Shown in pieces: positions 4,435 through 22,481 of a DNA stretch of 64,000 nt. Source of the stretch: Candidatus Gastranaerophilales bacterium. Its GTDB lineage: Bacteria; Cyanobacteriota; Vampirovibrionia; Gastranaerophilales; Gastranaerophilaceae. Position 1 is the stretch's first letter. Every line of letters begins with the position of its first letter. Location: contig CALUWK010000001.1 of assembly GCA_944324475.1 (NCBI GenBank), forward strand, positions 62,001 to 126,000, in the 5' to 3' direction. Made by a program: the position numbers and the translations under genes. The notes under the pieces are model-generated. The model did no database searches and was not told the origin of the DNA. It worked only from the letters and a program-made list of their open reading frames with translations.

Positions 4435-6151
4435 TTAACCTCAACTCATCTTCGGTGATAACCATTCTATCTTTTAATAGAATATCATATAATTCGTTTA
4501 AATTAAACTGTTTTAATAAAATTTCGTTCGATAAATTACAATTTGAATTACTTAAAATTACATTTAGAATATCGTATGTTGAAATATTCATAAAGGCATT
4601 AACTATATTTTCATCAAAATGTGTATTTTTACCTTCAAGCATTATTTTTAGGGCATCTTTAATTTTCATTTTGTCTCTATAGTGTCTTTTTGATGTTATA
4701 GCATCAAAAACGTCACAGACTGCAAGAATTCTTCCTCCAAGAGGTATATTTTCGCCCTTTAAACCTCTGTAATAACCCGTTCCATCGAATTTTTCGTGAT
4801 GTGAACTTGCAATTTCTGCTACATCTTCAAAGTTTTTTGATATATATACTTTGCTTAAGATGTTGTGTGTTAGTCTGGCATGTTCTTTTATGTGTTCATA
4901 TTCTTTTGGTGTTAGTTTACCTTCTTTTTGAAGTACGGAGTCTTTAATTCCTATTTTTCCTATGTCATGCAGGAGTGAAGCATTTTTTATAATTTCTTTT
5001 TCTTCATTTGAAAGTTTATATTTTTCACAAATCAATTCGGCATATAAAGTAACACGCTTAGAATGACCTGCGGTAATTTTATCTCTTGCATCTATTGAGG
5101 CCGCAAGAGTGTCGATGAAACTAGAAAATAATTTTTTTTGTTCTTCAATTAGTTTTTTTTGTTTATTAAATAAGTTAGCATTTTCGAGAGCAATCCCTGC
5201 AGATGAACCTATTGCAATGAGTAAATCTTCGTCTTTTTGTGTAAAATCTCCTTCAAATTTATTTAATACTTGAAAAACCCCAACTATTTGATGAGACAAA
5301 TTTCTAATTGGCATGCAAAGTATATTTTTCGTTTTGTAGCCTGTTTGAAGGTCAATATCTTTGTTGAAATACTCACTTTCATAAGCATTTTTAATGTTTA
5401 TTGTTTCTCCTGTCATTGCAACATGTCCTGCGAGTCCTTTATTTGCGGCAAATCTTAGTTCTTTTGTTTCAAGACCAAGTGCAACTTTGCTCCAAAGTTC
5501 ATTATGTTCGTCATCAAGTAAAAAAACAGTACATCTGTCTGCAACGAGTGCCTGTTGAATTTGTTGAGCGATTATAGTCAGAAGGCTATCAATGTTAGTT
5601 TCAACAGCTATTGTTCTTCCGACCTGTAAAAGTGCTAAAAGTGCATCATCTTTTATTTCGTTAGGTATGAATGATGGTGGAGTTGAAGATATAATTTTTT
5701 GTCTGTTTTCATTTTCAATTTTTTGTTTATATTTTAAAATTGCTTCATCAAGTTTATTTCCTTCTGGTATTTTTATATATAAACTTGCTTTTATAAGGTT
5801 TAGTGCGGTATTGTAGTTTTTTTCATAGTATTCAATAAGGCCTGAGATAAAAACATTAATTTTTTGTGCTAAAAATGAATTTGATGAGTTTGCTAGATAT
5901 TTTGCATCGTTTAATAGGCTTAAAGTTTGATAATATCTAGCTCCTTTGCGATAGTTATTGATTGCAAGATAAGACATTGCAACAGAAACTAAATCAAAAT
6001 CTTTTGTTGCTATTGCTTTTTTATGAGCGGAATTTAATTCTTGTTGTTTTAGAAATTTATCTTTGCAAATACAGTCAAAAAAAGAGTTGATAAGAAAAAT
6101 TTTCATCTCTTTGTAGTTACTTTTTTCAAGGTTTTGTAAAATTTCCGTCAT
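4397..6151 (-). CDS. GAF-HD-GYP domain protein, probable cyclic di-GMP phosphodiesterase
   Basis: The 584-aa product has a helical, TPR-like N-terminus (1-150), a GAF sensor domain (about 181-325), a short coiled-coil linker and an HD-GYP domain (about 345-530). The HD-GYP hallmarks are intact: HSKR (363-366), LLHDIGKIG (393-401) with the HD metal ligands, HHEKFDGTGY (451-460) and a GYYRG box in place of GYP-R. HD-GYP enzymes hydrolyse c-di-GMP or related cyclic dinucleotides. The GAF domain would sense a small ligand or a partner. It starts at an ATG with AGGA upstream and shares a divergent promoter region with polA. Loss of the Pro in GYP is tolerated in some members, so activity is likely but unproven. 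Confidence 0.85.
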   Translation of the reverse strand: MTEILQNLEKSNYKEMKIFLINSFFDCICKDKFLKQQELNSAHKKAIATKDFDLVSVAMSYLAINNYRKGARYYQTLSLLNDAKYLANSSNSFLAQKINVFISGLIEYYEKNYNTALNLIKASLYIKIPEGNKLDEAILKYKQKIENENRQKIISSTPPSFIPNEIKDDALLALLQVGRTIAVETNIDSLLTIIAQQIQQALVADRCTVFLLDDEHNELWSKVALGLETKELRFAANKGLAGHVAMTGETINIKNAYESEYFNKDIDLQTGYKTKNILCMPIRNLSHQIVGVFQVLNKFEGDFTQKDEDLLIAIGSSAGIALENANLFNKQKKLIEEQKKLFSSFIDTLAASIDARDKITAGHSKRVTLYAELICEKYKLSNEEKEIIKNASLLHDIGKIGIKDSVLQKEGKLTPKEYEHIKEHARLTHNILSKVYISKNFEDVAEIASSHHEKFDGTGYYRGLKGENIPLGGRILAVCDVFDAITSKRHYRDKMKIKDALKIMLEGKNTHFDENIVNAFMNISTYDILNVILSNSNCNLSNEILLKQFNLNELYDILLKDRMVITEDELRLIETFDKYYHYTA

Positions 6152-6214
6152 ATTCTATCCTATTTTATATTGTAGAATTATTATCTTTTTATGTCAAACG
6201 TAGAAAAGACTTGT

Positions 6215-6263
6215 TTTTACTATAATTTCAAAATTTTTACAACAATTTGAAATTATAGTAAAA
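6215..6263. promoter_or_regulatory. Perfect 18-bp inverted repeat carrying symmetric -10 boxes between divergent genes
   Basis: Arms 6215-6232 and 6246-6263 are exact inverted copies (TTTTACTATAATTTCAAA) separated by 13 nt. Each arm contains TATAAT, one reading toward polA and one toward the HD-GYP gene, so the two putative start sites would be only about 12 nt apart. No good -35 box is evident on either side. The core TTTACTATAATTTC also occurs at 473-486 before the 523-1110 gene. A symmetric operator is an alternative reading. Confidence 0.5.
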
Positions 6264-6282
6264 TTAATTTTAAGGGGAATTT

Positions 6283-8925
6283 ATGGAAGATAAAAAGACA
6301 CTTATTTTAATAGATGGTCACGCATTGGCTTTTAGAATGTTTTTTGCACTCGAACGAACAAATATGCAAACAACGACTCATATTCCGACTTGGGCGGTTT
6401 ATGGTTTTTTTAAAGTAATCTTTGACCTTTTGGCGGATAAAAAACTCTCTCTCAAACCAAATTCTATTGCAGTTGCATTTGATGTTTCAAAAGCAACTTT
6501 TAGACTTGAAAAATATTCAGAATATAAGGCTAACAGATTAACCATGCCGGATGCCTTAAGAACTCAGCTGGAACTTATTAAAGACGGGCTTAACGTTCTT
6601 GATATTCCGATATATACAATGGAAGGATATGAGGGTGATGATGTTATAGGTACTATTGCCTCTCAGGCAAGCAAGAAGGGTCATAGAACATATATTTTAA
6701 CTGGCGATAAGGATTCTTTTCAACTTGTTGATGATATGGGTTTAATTTCTGTTTTAATTCCTCAAAAAGGTGAGATTAATGAATATAATAAACAAAAAGT
6801 TTTTGAAAATTTGAACGTATATCCTAATCAAGTTGTAGACTATAAAGCTTTATGCGGCGATAGTTCGGATAATATTCCAGGGATTAGAGGAATTGGCCCA
6901 AAAAGTGCAGCATCTTTGCTTGAAGAATATTTAACTCTTGATGGAGTTTACGAAAACATTGAAAAAATCAGTAAAAAATCTTTGAAAGAGAAATTAATTG
7001 AAGGTAAGGAAAATGCCTATTTATCACAGTTTCTTGCAACAATAAAAAAGGATTTGGATATAAAATTTGATTTTGAAAGTGCGTGTTTAACTGCTCCAAA
7101 TAAGGAAAAAGTTAAAGATTTTTTTCAAAAATTGCAGTTTTATTCATTTGTTAAAAATATTGATAAATTACTTTCTCCCTTCAATATAGAAACTTCTTGC
7201 GAAAATGAAAATATTGTTAAATTTGATGAAATAAATCCTTCAATTTTGCAGATGAGTCTTTTTGATGAATCTGAAGAAACAAAAGAATTGAAAGAAGTTA
7301 TAAAATTAAAAGATGATGAAGTGAAAATCTTTTTAAATTCTATAAAAACAGGGGATAAAATAGCATTATTAGCAGATTATGCCGACAATAATTTTTGTTA
7401 TGTTTCAGACGGCAAAAGCACTTGTAAGGTTTCGTCTATAGAAATAAAGGATATATTTTTAAATGAGGAAATAAAAAAATGTGTTTATGATATAAAAACT
7501 ATTTTGTCTTCTGAAATAGGAGATATTAAAGGAGTTATAAGCGATGTACAACTATCAAGTTATATGCTTGATTCATCAAGAAAACATGATTTGATTACTC
7601 AGATAAATGAATGTTTAGAGGTTGTTCCCGATGAAAAGGATTTATATTCTTTATGTTCCTATATTTTAGATTTAAACGAATTTTATAATAAGAAATTAAC
7701 CGATGCAGAACTTAAATTATTGAATGAGGTTGAACTTCCTTTGGCTTTTGTTTTAAGTGATATGGAAAAAACAGGAGTTAAGATTGATGTAAATTGCCTT
7801 CAGGAAATTGGAAAAGAAATTGATTTTAAAGTTGCTGAATATGAAAAGAAAATATATAAAGAGGCTGATTGCACTTTTAATATAAATTCTCCTAAACAGG
7901 TAGCAGAAGTTTTATTTGACAAATTACAAATTAAACCCAAAAAAAGAGGTAAATCTGGAACATATAGTACAAATGCTAAAATATTGGATGAGCTTGCTTT
8001 TGAATATAATATTGCTTCTGATATTTTGCAACATCGTCAGTTGATGAAATTAAAAACAACTTATGTTGACGTTTTGCCTAAACTTGTTAAGGGCGACGGA
8101 AAAATTCATACACATTTCAATCAAATAGTAACTACAACTGGAAGATTGTCTTCTTCTGATCCTAATTTGCAGAATATTCCAATTAGAACTGAATTTTCAA
8201 ATAGAATTAGGGGTGCTTTTATTCCTGCTGATGCAGAATCATATATAATGAGTGCTGATTATTCACAAGTAGAATTGCGTCTTTTAGCTCATTATTCGGG
8301 AGATGAAAGTTTAATTAAGGCGTTTGTGGAGGATGTAGATATTCATAAAGTTACGGCCTCAAAGATTTTTGGTGTCCCTGTTGAAAATGTTACAAAAGAA
8401 ATGAGGAGAAAAGCTAAAACTGTTAATTTTGGTATAATATATGGTCAGACAAAATATGGATTATCTAAAACATTGGGAATTGAGCCTTTTGAAGCGCAAG
8501 AATTAATTAATAAGTATTTTATGACTTATCCTAAGATTTCGGGTTATATAAATTCAACTCTTGAAAAAGCAAATGAAAAAGGGTATGTTGAAACTTTATA
8601 TGGTAGAAGAAGGTATCTTGGTGCAGAATTAAATTCGAGAAATGCAAATATAAGGGAGTTTGCTGCTCGTGCTGCAATAAACGCTCCATTGCAGGGAACA
8701 AGTGCTGATATTATTAAAATGGCGATGGTTGATTTATTTGAGAAATTGAAAAGTTACAAGTCAAAAATGATATTACAAATTCATGATGAATTGGTTTTAG
8801 AAGTTCCGAAAGATGAAATTGAAATAGTAGAACAAATTGTAATTAAAGCAATGGAACTTAATCAACCTTTAAAAGTGCCTCTTAAGGTTGAAGTTAGTTT
8901 GGGAAAAACTTGGATGGAAAAATAA
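6283..8925 (+). CDS. polA: DNA polymerase I
   Basis: The 880-aa product has the three PolA regions. The 5'-3' exonuclease/FEN domain (1-300) includes EGYEGDDVIGT, LTGDKDSFQL and the GIRGIGPKSA helix-hairpin-helix. A 3'-5' exonuclease-like region (about 320-480) follows, then the polymerase domain (490-880). Polymerase motif A (SADYSQVELRLLAHYS), motif B (RRKAKTVNFGIIYGQ) and motif C (QIHDELVLEVP) are intact. The proofreading domain lacks the canonical DxE, with LLADYADN at that place, so it is probably inactive, as in Taq and Bacillus enzymes. It heads an operon with priA and a helicase/nuclease pair. Role: Okazaki fragment maturation and repair synthesis. Confidence 0.97.
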   Translation: MEDKKTLILIDGHALAFRMFFALERTNMQTTTHIPTWAVYGFFKVIFDLLADKKLSLKPNSIAVAFDVSKATFRLEKYSEYKANRLTMPDALRTQLELIKDGLNVLDIPIYTMEGYEGDDVIGTIASQASKKGHRTYILTGDKDSFQLVDDMGLISVLIPQKGEINEYNKQKVFENLNVYPNQVVDYKALCGDSSDNIPGIRGIGPKSAASLLEEYLTLDGVYENIEKISKKSLKEKLIEGKENAYLSQFLATIKKDLDIKFDFESACLTAPNKEKVKDFFQKLQFYSFVKNIDKLLSPFNIETSCENENIVKFDEINPSILQMSLFDESEETKELKEVIKLKDDEVKIFLNSIKTGDKIALLADYADNNFCYVSDGKSTCKVSSIEIKDIFLNEEIKKCVYDIKTILSSEIGDIKGVISDVQLSSYMLDSSRKHDLITQINECLEVVPDEKDLYSLCSYILDLNEFYNKKLTDAELKLLNEVELPLAFVLSDMEKTGVKIDVNCLQEIGKEIDFKVAEYEKKIYKEADCTFNINSPKQVAEVLFDKLQIKPKKRGKSGTYSTNAKILDELAFEYNIASDILQHRQLMKLKTTYVDVLPKLVKGDGKIHTHFNQIVTTTGRLSSSDPNLQNIPIRTEFSNRIRGAFIPADAESYIMSADYSQVELRLLAHYSGDESLIKAFVEDVDIHKVTASKIFGVPVENVTKEMRRKAKTVNFGIIYGQTKYGLSKTLGIEPFEAQELINKYFMTYPKISGYINSTLEKANEKGYVETLYGRRRYLGAELNSRNANIREFAARAAINAPLQGTSADIIKMAMVDLFEKLKSYKSKMILQIHDELVLEVPKDEIEIVEQIVIKAMELNQPLKVPLKVEVSLGKTWMEK

Positions 8926-8926
8926 A

Positions 8927-9289
8927 ATGAGAAAAATATTTTTAATTTTAAGTTTATTATTTTCAATTTGTTTCGCTCAGAGTATGTTTGAAGAATGTTA
9001 TAGGATATATCCAAAAGATGCGGACACTCTTTTTATGAGTGCAATAGGGGCGATTAATTCTGATTCTAGGTTTTCAATTTCTGAAATTCAGTCTGCAAAC
9101 GGATATATTTTGTTTTTATATGGCTCTAAGTATTATCTTTTAACATTAACAAAAAGGTATCAAAATCAAACTGAAATAAAAATTCTTCCTCAAAATAGTG
9201 ATTTTTCTCAGGGAAGTACGGTCGCAAAGGCTGTTTTTGCACTTATTGACACAAAATTGAAGAATTCTCCAATGGGACTTGTTAAGTAA
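8927..9289 (+). CDS. Small exported protein of unknown function, 120 aa
   Basis: The ATG at 8927 begins one base after the polA stop codon. It opens with a Sec signal peptide (MRKIFLILSLLFSICFAQS) with likely cleavage after FAQ or CFA. The mature part of about 100 residues has a YPKDADTLFMSAIGAI segment and beta-rich stretches (YILFLYGSKYYLLTLTK). The reading frame continues upstream to 8888 inside polA, but the signal peptide makes 8927 the sensible start. It is sandwiched between polA and priA with 1-2 nt spacing, so it is co-transcribed with repair genes although its product is exported. I do not recognise the family. Confidence 0.7.
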   Translation: MRKIFLILSLLFSICFAQSMFEECYRIYPKDADTLFMSAIGAINSDSRFSISEIQSANGYILFLYGSKYYLLTLTKRYQNQTEIKILPQNSDFSQGSTVAKAVFALIDTKLKNSPMGLVK

Positions 9290-18988: not shown

Positions 18989-21900
18989 ATGTTACTTAAA
19001 AAATCAAATAAATTTATATTTGCATTTAGCTTAATTGAACTTATGGTTAGTTTAATTACAATAAGTTGCATTGCTGCAGCTTTTTCTCCAATCATTTCAA
19101 AAAAACTTTCAATGTCTTCAATTATGGTATCTAAACCATCAGGGGGATCTGAAGGGGATAGCTCTGGTTCTTGCCCATCTGGTCAGTATATGCCAAGTGG
19201 GACAAATACTTGCACAAAATGTTCTGATACTTTTTCTGGTTGTTCAATATGCACTGAATCAGAGTGTTTAGTCTGTAATTCTGGTTTTAATTTATTTAAT
19301 GGTCAATGTGAACTTAATAGTTGTCCAGCAAATACTATTAAAATTACCACTAATGGTAAAGATCTTTGTGTAACTCAGTATAATATGGGTGACAGATCTG
19401 AGTTCCCGGTTAACATTTCAAATGTTTCTGTAGTTTCAGTTGGTACAAGTTGCACTGCTGATGCCTGCTGCTGGCAGGGTAAGACCTCTGAATCTTGCGA
19501 TTCAGAAAACGGTGGTTATAGCGGATGTAATAGAACAGTATGTACTTACTATGCAGCAGAAAAAATATGTAACAACTTAAATTATGGTGGTATGGGCTGG
19601 AGACTACCTACTAAAGATGAACTCGCTGGATTTGATCCAACTACAAATTCAAAATATAAAGGTACATCAGGTCTTATGTTGTGTGACGACGATTCTGGTT
19701 ACGGTTCTGCTCAATGTGCTGATTATTATAATTGTGATACTAATTATTATGAATGTTCTTCAAATCACATTTGGTGTGTTCAAACTATTCAACCTAGTAA
19801 TTGGAAAACTAGTACATATGCAATGGGTTCGGGCTCTTGGAGTAGCTGGTCATCTACAGGTACTCGTTACGCCTATTCCGTACGTTGTGTCAGTAATTTG
19901 ACTTGTGCTACTAAATTTAATTCAAATTGTTTAGATTGTAGCGATACTACATGTACTGTCTGCAAAAAAGGGTATGTAGTTAATAAAAATGGTCAATGCA
20001 TAGCTGATCCATGTCCAGAGAATACTGTTTATGTTGAAGCTGATGGTAAAGAACTTTGTGTAACTCAATATAATATGGGGGATAAAACTGAATTTCCAGT
20101 TAATGTCTCTGGTGTCTCTGTAGTTTCAACTGGTACAAATTGCAGCGCAAATGCCTGCTGCTGGCAGGGTAGGACTTCTAATTATTGCAATTCAGATAAT
20201 GGTGATTACAGCGGATGTAATAGAACTTTATGTACTCAATATGCAGCAGAAATTATATGTAACAACTTAAATTATGGTGGTTTAACTTGGAGACTACCTA
20301 CCAAAGATGAACTTGCTGGATTTTATCCAACATATTCAAAAGACCTAGGAACAAGTGGTCTTATGTTGTGTGACTACTATTCTGGTTACGGTTCAGCTCG
20401 GTGCGACGATTACGATGTTTGCGACGGCTCCTACGATGGTAACTGCTACCCGTACTACGTTTGGAGCAGTGCGCTTAATAGTAGCTTTAATGCTTATCTT
20501 TATTGTTTGCATGCAAGGTCATGGGGTTTAAATTCATTTAATAGACGTGAGGCTAATTCTGTTCGTTGTGTGAGTAATATAGCATGCACAAAATTCGGTT
20601 CAAATTGTACAGATTGTAGCGATTCTGCCTGCACTGCTTGCAAGGAGGGGTATGCAGTAAAAAATAGTCAGTGCGTAGCTTGTTCTAGTGCTTTTGGTTC
20701 AGGTTGCACTTCTTGCAGCTCATCTGCCTGTACTGCTTGTTCTGATGGGCATATTTTAAAAGACGGAAAGTGTATAGTAAGTCCATGTCCAACTAATACT
20801 GTTTATGTTGCAGCAGGTAATAAAGAACTTTGTGTAACTCAATATAACATGGGGGATAAAACTGAATTTCCAGTTAACGTTTCTGGTGTCTCTGTAGTTT
20901 CAACAAATTCAAATTGCAACGCAAATGCCTGCTGCTGGCAGGGTACGACTGCATCTCCTTGTAATTCAATTAATGGTGATTACAGTGGATGTAATAGAAC
21001 TTTATGTACTCAATATGCAGCAGAAAAAATATGTAACAATTTAAATTATGGTGGTATGAGCTGGAGACTACCTACTAAAGATGAACTTAAAGGATTTGAT
21101 CCAGGTTCATATTCAATAAACAAGGGAACAAGTGGTCTTATGTTATGTGACTACGGTTCTGGTTATGGTTCTGCTTATTGCCATGGTTGTTATGTTTGTA
21201 ATGGTTCTAGCAGTGGCAGTTGCAGTCCAGATCGCATTTGGTGTAGTACACTTTATAGTAGTTCTAGTGCCTATAATTATTATTTGTATTCAGGGTCTTG
21301 GACTCAGGATCAATATGAAAGACGCCATGCTTTTTCCGTTCGTTGTGTCAGTCCCTTAAGTGAAAAAACTTGCAAAGACACCTTTGGCAATGGTTGCGTT
21401 GAATGTTCATCATCTGCCTGCACTAGATGTGTAGATGGGTATAACTTAAAAGATGGTCAGTGTGTAGCTTGTTCTAGTGCTTTTGGTATAAATTGTACTT
21501 CTTGCAGTTCATCTGCTTGTACTATTTGTAAAGAAGGATATGGAATAAAAGATGGTCAATGTGTTACTTGCTCTGATGCTTTTGGTGCAGGGTGTACTTC
21601 TTGCAGTTCATCTGCTTGCAATATTTGTTCTAGTGGATATACCTTAAAAAATGGCAAATGTGTCGTGGTGCCAACATGTCCAGCGAACACTGTTAAAATC
21701 ACAGTTAGTGGCAAAGACCTTTGTGTAACTCAATATAACATGGGAGATAAAACCGAGTTTCCCGTTAACGTCTCTGGTGTCTCTGTAGTTTCAACAAATT
21801 CATATTGCGGCGCAGATGCCTGCTGCTGGCAGGGCAGGACTGCTAATAATTCTTGCAATTCAAATAATGGTGACTACAGCGGATGCAAAAGAACTGTATG

Positions 21901-22255
21901 CACTCAATACGCTGCTGAAATTATATGTAACAACCTAAATTATGGTGGTATGAGCTGGAGATTACCTACTGAAGATGAACTTGCTGGATTTGATCCAGAT
22001 ACATATTCAAGATATAAAGGTGCTAGCGGCCTTATGTTGTGTGACGAGCTTTCCGGTTACGGTTCTGCTGAATGCTACAAATGCAGTGCTTGCGCTGGCT
22101 CCGACAATGGTAACTGCGAGCCGTACCACGTATGGAGTAGTACACTTTATAGTAGTTCGAGTGCTTACGAATACTTCTTGGGTTATGGGTCATGGAATTC
22201 GAATCACGGCAATAAACGGTACGCCTCTTCCGTACGTTGTGTCAGTGAGTTATAA
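18989..22255 (+). CDS. Type IV pilin-like, cysteine-rich protein with four tandem C-type-lectin-like (DUF1566/FISUMP-type) modules
   Basis: The 1088-aa protein opens with a prepilin signal: a Lys-rich leader, then FA|FSLIELMVSLITISC, with Glu at +5 of the mature form and cleavage after Ala12. Four modules of about 190 aa follow (near 110-304, 342-531, 600-789, 898-1088). Each has ELCVTQYNMGD, ACCWQG, NNLNYGG.WRLPT.DEL, GLMLCD..SGYGSA and a final SVRCVS, the WRLPT...RCV layout of DUF1566/FISUMP domains. Linkers carry short Cys-rich units (CTSCSSSACTACSDG.ILKDGKC type). It is probably a surface pseudopilin or adhesin cross-linked by disulfides. Ligand unknown. No pilus assembly genes are nearby. 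Confidence 0.8.
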   Translation: MLLKKSNKFIFAFSLIELMVSLITISCIAAAFSPIISKKLSMSSIMVSKPSGGSEGDSSGSCPSGQYMPSGTNTCTKCSDTFSGCSICTESECLVCNSGFNLFNGQCELNSCPANTIKITTNGKDLCVTQYNMGDRSEFPVNISNVSVVSVGTSCTADACCWQGKTSESCDSENGGYSGCNRTVCTYYAAEKICNNLNYGGMGWRLPTKDELAGFDPTTNSKYKGTSGLMLCDDDSGYGSAQCADYYNCDTNYYECSSNHIWCVQTIQPSNWKTSTYAMGSGSWSSWSSTGTRYAYSVRCVSNLTCATKFNSNCLDCSDTTCTVCKKGYVVNKNGQCIADPCPENTVYVEADGKELCVTQYNMGDKTEFPVNVSGVSVVSTGTNCSANACCWQGRTSNYCNSDNGDYSGCNRTLCTQYAAEIICNNLNYGGLTWRLPTKDELAGFYPTYSKDLGTSGLMLCDYYSGYGSARCDDYDVCDGSYDGNCYPYYVWSSALNSSFNAYLYCLHARSWGLNSFNRREANSVRCVSNIACTKFGSNCTDCSDSACTACKEGYAVKNSQCVACSSAFGSGCTSCSSSACTACSDGHILKDGKCIVSPCPTNTVYVAAGNKELCVTQYNMGDKTEFPVNVSGVSVVSTNSNCNANACCWQGTTASPCNSINGDYSGCNRTLCTQYAAEKICNNLNYGGMSWRLPTKDELKGFDPGSYSINKGTSGLMLCDYGSGYGSAYCHGCYVCNGSSSGSCSPDRIWCSTLYSSSSAYNYYLYSGSWTQDQYERRHAFSVRCVSPLSEKTCKDTFGNGCVECSSSACTRCVDGYNLKDGQCVACSSAFGINCTSCSSSACTICKEGYGIKDGQCVTCSDAFGAGCTSCSSSACNICSSGYTLKNGKCVVVPTCPANTVKITVSGKDLCVTQYNMGDKTEFPVNVSGVSVVSTNSYCGADACCWQGRTANNSCNSNNGDYSGCKRTVCTQYAAEIICNNLNYGGMSWRLPTEDELAGFDPDTYSRYKGASGLMLCDELSGYGSAECYKCSACAGSDNGNCEPYHVWSSTLYSSSSAYEYFLGYGSWNSNHGNKRYASSVRCVSEL
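19318..22252 (+). repeat. Four intragenic direct repeats encoding the lectin-like modules
   Basis: Approximate units are 19318-19899, 20014-20582, 20788-21357 and 21680-22252. Near-identical DNA blocks recur in every unit, for example GCCTGCTGCTGGCAGGG and the ATGTGTAACAA-type block before NLNYGG. Between these fixed blocks are two strongly divergent patches per unit, after the GLMLCD block and just before RCVS. The third unit resembles the fourth in its VWSSTLYSSSSAY-type stretch, suggesting recent duplication or gene conversion. Confidence 0.85.
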
Positions 22256-22363
22256 CAATGAGGTGTCAATACTTTAGTCATTTTACAATTTAATACTTTT
22301 TATAAAAATGTAGGAAGTAAAAATAGAAAGGAGAAAAACAAAAAGAAAAAAAATCTAATTCCA

Positions 22364-22400
22364 GTGGTTTATTTATAATCCACGGCTATAAATAAACCAC
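22364..22400. other. 14-bp perfect inverted repeat without a T-tract
   Basis: GTGGTTTATTTATA (22364-22377) and its reverse complement (22387-22400) enclose a 9-nt loop. It lies 109 nt past the pilin-like gene and is not followed by T residues on either strand, so it does not look like a simple terminator. It could stabilise the mRNA 3' end or be a protein site. The 22256-22572 gap otherwise holds two terminators and no ORF I would support. Confidence 0.5.
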
Positions 22401-22449
22401 GCTCCAAATAATTACAAAAAATTTCATATTATTTTTTGTGTTTTGGTTA

Positions 22450-22481
22450 GGGACAATGCTCCAACATTGTCCCTTTTTTTT
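22450..22481 (+). terminator. Intrinsic terminator after the pilin-like gene
   Basis: GGGACAATG / CATTGTCCC form a 9-bp stem with loop CTCCAA, followed by eight T residues. Strong rightward terminator for the 18989-22255 transcript. Confidence 0.9.

Follow-up and report, generated by a model that had tools for sequence, protein, structure and literature searches.

The window studied here is a 64,000-nucleotide (nt) stretch of contig CALUWK010000001.1 (positions 62,001 to 126,000, forward strand) from a genome of the Gastranaerophilales, common, poorly cultured gut relatives of the cyanobacteria. The gene in question is an open reading frame (ORF) at window positions 18989-22255 (+), which starts with ATG and encodes a protein of 1088 amino acids (aa) that joins a pilin-like anchor and Cys-rich linkers to four Lcl_C modules, as judged from the ORF call and Pfam. 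Very probably a diversity-generating retroelement (DGR) diversifies a dispersed family of pilin-anchored Lcl_C proteins, and this gene is one of its targets. In the assembly (1.72 Mb in 64 contigs, 97.4% complete) there are at least eight lectin genes, in which 27 modules are recognised; further fragments lie at contig ends, and at least ten contig ends of the assembly fall within lectin-gene or anchor sequence. A preliminary description had regarded the protein as an isolated, unusual pilin. We reject that reading because the genome carries at least eight such paralogues, which appear to form a DGR-diversified target family. The same description missed the hypervariable module ends with their fixed third codon bases.

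These variable regions (VRs) are the last ~70 codons (~210 nt) of each module. Over ~26 codons per module, from LCD to SVRCV, every base occurs at codon positions 1 and 2 and position 3 is invariant, and the whole string of 26 third bases is identical in several modules of different genes. When matched pairs are compared, differences at codon positions 1/2/3 number 119/115/35 in the VR versus 152/162/155 in the 150 nt upstream. Contig C27 carries a nearly identical twin of module 4; between the two there are 3 differences in the 393 nt that precede the VR, but 54 in 183 aligned nt once SGYGSA is reached. Such constancy at the third base beside free variation at the first two is the signature that a DGR leaves behind when AAY codons are rewritten from its template with adenine-directed mutagenesis. 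As a per-module index we used the share of codons changed at position 1 or 2 that are also changed at position 3, relative to the best partner. In the window gene this third-base mismatch fraction is 0.18 for the VR of module 4 (22037..22246, +), 0.29 for the older-looking VR of module 1 (19679..19894, +) and 0.30 overall for that of module 2 (20366..20575, +), the first half of which is template-like (0.09) and the second half not; the VR of module 3 (21143..21352, +) has the weakest signature, 0.375. The VR of module 4 ends in the conserved TCCGTACGTTGTGTCAGT (22229..22246, +), the likely position for initiation of mutagenic homing, and this motif recurs at 19877, at 20558 with 3 mismatches and at 21335 with 1 mismatch.

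The machinery of such a retroelement is present in congeners. A reverse transcriptase (RT) with an IGNLTSQ-type motif, related to the protein of genome G016, occurs in 7 of 28 genomes of the genus; it is found in 7 of the 20 congeners (own genome included) that match the lectin family versus none of the 8 that lack matches. In several congeners the RT is adjoined by a bAvd-like protein (E 1.8e-8 and 7.2e-9; 35.3 and 36.6 bits, below the cut-off of 40). The cassette order in G016 and G019 is lectin gene, Avd, RT, template repeat (TR), eda-like gene, and in G025 and others the cassette lies at other sites. The TR of G016 (L058:7950-8161, minus strand; translation ...LCDNNSGNSSARCNNSSRCPGSNNGNCNPNNVWSG...) has 24 mismatches in 212 nt to a VR 2 kb away, all 24 of them at TR adenines. 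Nine VRs of G019 are changed from their TR at 178 of 522 A sites and at 45 of 1359 other sites, and for seven VRs of G025 the corresponding counts are 166 of 390 and 61 of 1074. TR-VR identity stops at the same GC-rich TCGGTGCGCTGTGT in both genomes, the equivalent of TCCGTACGTTGTGTCAGT.

The adenine test for the present genome is made by proxy, through congener TRs and third-base constancy, because the assembly does not contain the genome's own TR; the use of congener TRs as the template makes the test non-circular. Among template-like modules here, sites where each of the three congener TRs has an adenine show a mean entropy of 1.24, and sites where none of them does 0.34 (Mann-Whitney p 2.6e-15); codon position 1 taken alone gives 1.34 vs 0.33, and codon position 2 gives 1.14 vs 0.27. 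An index below 0.15 is reached by 11 of 26 modules here. Each of the four RT-positive congeners tested also has modules below this value, and the six RT-negative congeners with at least two modules have none (minimum 0.40), a tally in which the congeners are related, the modules were sampled from best matches and genomes with fewer modules offer fewer partners.

In the mechanism that we propose, the TR would be transcribed and then copied by the DGR-type RT together with Avd, with errors at adenines, and the cDNA would take the place of the corresponding ~210 nt at the end of Lcl_C modules, as far as the conserved 3' motif, in terminal and in-array modules alike. The changed codons, mostly AAY in the TR, would lie in the last part of the C-type-lectin fold and let each protein present between one and four distinct binding faces. 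The class III signal at the N-terminus would take the protein to the inner membrane and, after cleavage by the prepilin peptidase, to the surface, a pilus or a pseudopilus, and the displayed protein would bind variable partners, namely glycans or proteins of a host, a phage or a neighbour.

Several results weigh against this explanation, among them the relatedness and sampling of the congeners just given. Neither a PF00078 profile nor a search with the congener RT finds a DGR-type RT in this assembly (a 14.4-bit PF00078 match on C29 is an ORF that resembles a glycosyltransferase, not an RT). A search of the assembly with a synthetic TR matches the lectin genes and a fragment of one with which C40 begins, and yields no TR copy elsewhere. 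Avd likewise gives no match in the assembly, a weak negative as the control matched nowhere, and the platform protein PilC/GspF (PF00482) is absent from the assembly. Finally, the index of the window VRs (0.18 to 0.375) exceeds that of the paralogues on C33, C52, C27 and C12 (0 to 0.17), so the window gene may be an older or seldom rewritten member of the target family. As for the missing cassette, we consider an assembly gap likelier than a loss, because contig C35 ends where G016 and G019 hold theirs: an eda-like gene occupies C35:14933-15520, and the contig stops at 15669, 149 bp further on, inside the lectin-gene 3'-flank element. This end is the best candidate site and not proof, since the cassette is elsewhere in G025 and others. 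The assembly does have real gaps, since almost every congener has PF00482 and this assembly does not; the absence is probably such a gap, or may alternatively be a real loss of the pilus platform.

The same missing genes would be expected if a DGR had diversified the family recently and had then been lost in this species, leaving arrays that are frozen or only shuffled by recombination. Many lectin-family congeners without RT and the partly decayed window VRs fit such a relic, yet all or nearly all third bases are still common to modules of different genes here, a feature lost entirely in the RT-less congeners, and this assembly with its real gaps breaks off at the TR-RT-Avd site of G016 and G019; we therefore regard a relic as rather unlikely. 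Recombination among the copies occurs, as the near-identical blocks of the paralogues indicate, and part of the VR shuffling between modules may be of this kind. Ordinary diversifying selection and gene conversion among paralogous modules, with no retroelement, would nevertheless leave unexplained why third bases are fixed beside free first and second bases, why the variable sites coincide with congener TR adenines and why real TR-RT-Avd cassettes exist in congeners, and we give this alternative hardly any weight. Scarcely more credible is a plain pilus-tip adhesin or type II secretion substrate free of diversification, as in the preliminary description: the prepilin signal, the Lcl_C fold and the peptidase and ATPases are all present, but the hypervariability and the codon pattern are left unexplained. 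Its display step is compatible with a DGR acting on the family, so that the two are not exclusive.

A further alternative concerns only where the DGR writes. The window gene has one terminal VR and three internal ones, and most VRs of the family have coding sequence 3' of them, whereas published VRs lie almost exclusively at the 3' ends of target genes (PMC7517822); PMC6642488 records several VRs within one ORF in 31 DGRs. It is conceivable, if somewhat doubtful, that only the 3'-terminal VR is rewritten and that the internal ones are an archive of earlier copies, carried inward by tandem duplication or recombination. Besides the published distribution, the conserved 3' flank with its inverted repeat, found only behind the terminal module, favours such an archive. 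Against it, internal VRs of G019 and G025 are at least as faithful to the TR at non-A sites as terminal VRs are (changed fractions 0.037 and 0.055 internal; 0.063 and 0.059 terminal), and at A sites the changed fractions are 0.37 and 0.44 internal and 0.41 and 0.41 terminal. Either homing reaches the internal VRs or template-fresh VRs spread inward fast by recombination. That one DGR rewrites many modules in place, internal ones included, and thereby provides two to four independently variable binding faces per pilin-anchored protein and more than 25 per cell, seems to us about evenly balanced. If in-place rewriting of internal modules is true, VRs would need neither a 3'-terminal position nor an adjacent downstream hairpin. 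The internal VRs call into question the rule of 3'-end DGR targets.

The modules themselves are matched in four stretches of the window protein by Lcl_C (PF07603, E 1.1e-28, 100.3 bits vs a cut-off of 34.9), which we take to be the current name of the old DUF1566. Each measures ~190 aa, and they occupy 19322..19900, 20012..20581, 20786..21358 and 21677..22252 (all +), with DNA repeat spacings of 690, 774 and ~891-894 in the gene. The coordinates, length, Cys-rich linkers and four tandem modules of the preliminary description are all borne out on the sequence. It had called the modules DUF1566/FISUMP-like; the DUF1566 half stands, and the FISUMP identity has been dropped because neither Pfam nor NCBIfam returns a Fib_succ_major/FISUMP match on the window protein at E up to 1.

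Module 4 was used for structure prediction, with 24 relatives in the alignment, and is confidently predicted to have a C-type-lectin fold (predicted local distance difference test score (pLDDT) 91.6; predicted template modelling score 0.90), in agreement with the lectin-like modules first described. A profile search of PDB sequences gave no significant match. The top three Foldseek chains are the C-terminal domain of Legionella Lcl and two of the C-terminal domain of Bdellovibrio Bd2740 (E 1e-3 to 3e-3, probability 1.00). Superposition gives Z 12.2 with Bd2740 (8oks; root-mean-square deviation (rmsd) 2.0, 101 aligned) and Z 11.1 with Lcl (8q4e; rmsd 2.7, 109 aligned), the nearest solved structures, and many further C-type lectins follow at Z ~9 to 10. 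The Lcl and Bd2740 domains share 19-21% identity with the module, and each occurs singly, as a C-terminal domain, in its solved structure. Treponema denticola TvpA (2y3c; Z 8.9, rmsd 4.1, 146 aligned), a formylglycine-generating-enzyme-type C-type lectin and lipoprotein, is a DGR variable protein and, like the window modules, carries its VR on a C-type-lectin-type fold; it differs in having no tandem array. A multivalent adhesin-type protein, as originally proposed, is supported by the architecture and the predicted fold, binding itself being putative.

The N-terminus (...IFAFSLIELMVSLITISCIAAAF) has a prepilin-type leader followed by a hydrophobic helix (18989..19111, +, from sequence), divided between MLLKKSNKFIFA and FSLIELMVSLITISCIAAAF..., and the cleavage context places IFA before FSLIELMVSLITISC, with Ala at -1 and Glu at +5. 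The prepilin signal with Glu at +5 that was claimed earlier is therefore visible, and it is nearly unchanged among the paralogues, though the Pfam N_methyl match falls below threshold (13.2 bits vs 21.2, E 0.071). The N-terminal model contains a helix at residues 15-41; with a mean pLDDT of 38 it is of low confidence and too poor for use. The first Cys-rich segment (19172..19321, +, from sequence), in the interval between the anchor and module 1, has Cys positions kept in paralogues and forms strands at pLDDT ~75 in this low-confidence model; the whole protein has 106 Cys and 22 CxxC. Assembly genes had been expected elsewhere in the genome, and a genome search does find a prepilin peptidase on C21 (A24_N, 106.8 bits, plus A24) and T2SSE-family ATPases on C4, C47 and C21, with members that carry MshEN or are PilT-like. 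Neither of the two outcomes that would have counted against the preliminary description, a genome lacking such proteins or modules lacking the C-type-lectin fold, was obtained. The N-terminal motif, the low-confidence helix and the genomic peptidase together support a pilin-like anchor. Incorporation into a pilus remains putative because PF00482 is missing from the assembly. The protein may be a minor pilin, a pseudopilin or only membrane-anchored; its sequence contains no pilin head domain, and the N-terminal model is unreliable.

DGRs with Lcl_C targets are known. According to the surveys PMC6642488 and PMC8144416, DUF1566 is the commonest named Pfam domain of DGR targets, and putative pilin structures occur among DUF1566-carrying proteins. 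The targets surveyed there resemble the present family in their C-type-lectin-type domain with the VR at its end, in adenine-directed substitutions and in a machinery of RT, Avd and TR (here in congeners); they differ from the two to four VR-bearing lectin modules per protein, the prepilin-type anchor, the at least eight dispersed genes and the cassette that is not beside its targets in the assembly seen here. The remote DGR targets of Trichodesmium and Nostoc (PMC7517822) are likewise dispersed C-type-lectin paralogues, attributed to a distant cassette, in a related phylum, but their VRs are described as lying exclusively near the 3' terminus and most of them as cytosolic, whereas here VRs are also internal and a class III secretion signal is present. 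The DGRs of Bacteroides type V pilus tips (Macadangdang et al. 2024, as cited in PMC12632263) also diversify a pilin-type adhesin of a gut bacterium. According to the passage of PMC12632263 at hand, Bacteroidales use type V lipoprotein pili, in contrast to the type IV prepilin leader here, and that passage describes no tandem module array such as the one seen here. What is new is the combination of tandem, mostly internal VRs with a class III-signal anchor in dispersed genes of the Gastranaerophilales.

We found no report in the open literature that joins DGRs with Melainabacteria or Gastranaerophilales, although one may exist elsewhere, and in the literature searched we saw no account of how the Gastranaerophilales recognise a host, a phage or a neighbour. 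A hypermutated, multivalent repertoire of pilin-anchored lectins, if true, would give these bacteria a way to do so in the form of fast-changing adhesins, and would parallel the pilus-tip DGRs of Bacteroides on another secretion route. Assemblies break at target repeats, and a metagenome-assembled genome would lose the RT cassette in this way; surveys requiring an RT beside the VR would then miss the system, a limit that PMC8144416 itself states.

The paralogues of the window gene share near-identical blocks at the N-terminus, in the 3' flank and in module 4 with its twin. The 3' flank (22253..22363, +) is nearly identical in most paralogues of the genome: the ~110 nt past the stop codon are near-identical across most of them, and the coding modules diverge far more. 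This shared flank may be a retrohoming element or simply reflect a recent duplication. It is followed by a 14-bp inverted repeat (22364..22400, +), present in several paralogues and a possible cruciform or hairpin, and then by a terminator-like hairpin with a T run (22449..22481, +, from sequence). The stretch 22253-22400 recurs at loci L022, L023 and L027 and partly at L026 and L035. The last ~95 nt of L157 (C35 of this genome, G000) are the reverse complement of the lectin-gene 3' flank, and the same ~95-nt stretch adjoins ATP synthase genes on C40 (L035).

Some further observations were made on DGRs in related genomes. In G025, two TR-like copies adjoin each other 3' of the RT, at positions 7834-8043 and 8271 onwards of L060; one is rich in A and the other is partly changed, and they may represent two templates or a single template that has been rewritten. 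The A-rich copy at L060:7834 fits as the TR, and the copy at L060:8271 does not. The G010 pair at L057:8814 and 10953 is not a TR-VR pair, its mismatches being at T on the gene strand. Among viral contigs the VR pattern had 0 matches and the RT only 1 distant match (25% identity). In G005 (L056), a TR at 8240-8456 and a VR at 6916-7132 have 19 of 20 mismatches at A, and the target, a pilin-like protein of 531 aa, is rich in glycine throughout its C-terminal half and has its VR in mid-gene (ORF 6080-7675). Contig C1 of G015 (L063) carries a second DGR amid phage-like genes, which looks like a prophage DGR: its RT (5161-6357), TR (6376-6491) and VR (7060-7175) accompany a different, 722-aa target, and all 12 mismatches are at A. 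A phage-like DGR also occurs on contig C7 of G034, from a neighbouring genus (L064; RT 8072-9166), where 11 of 12 TR-VR mismatches are at A.

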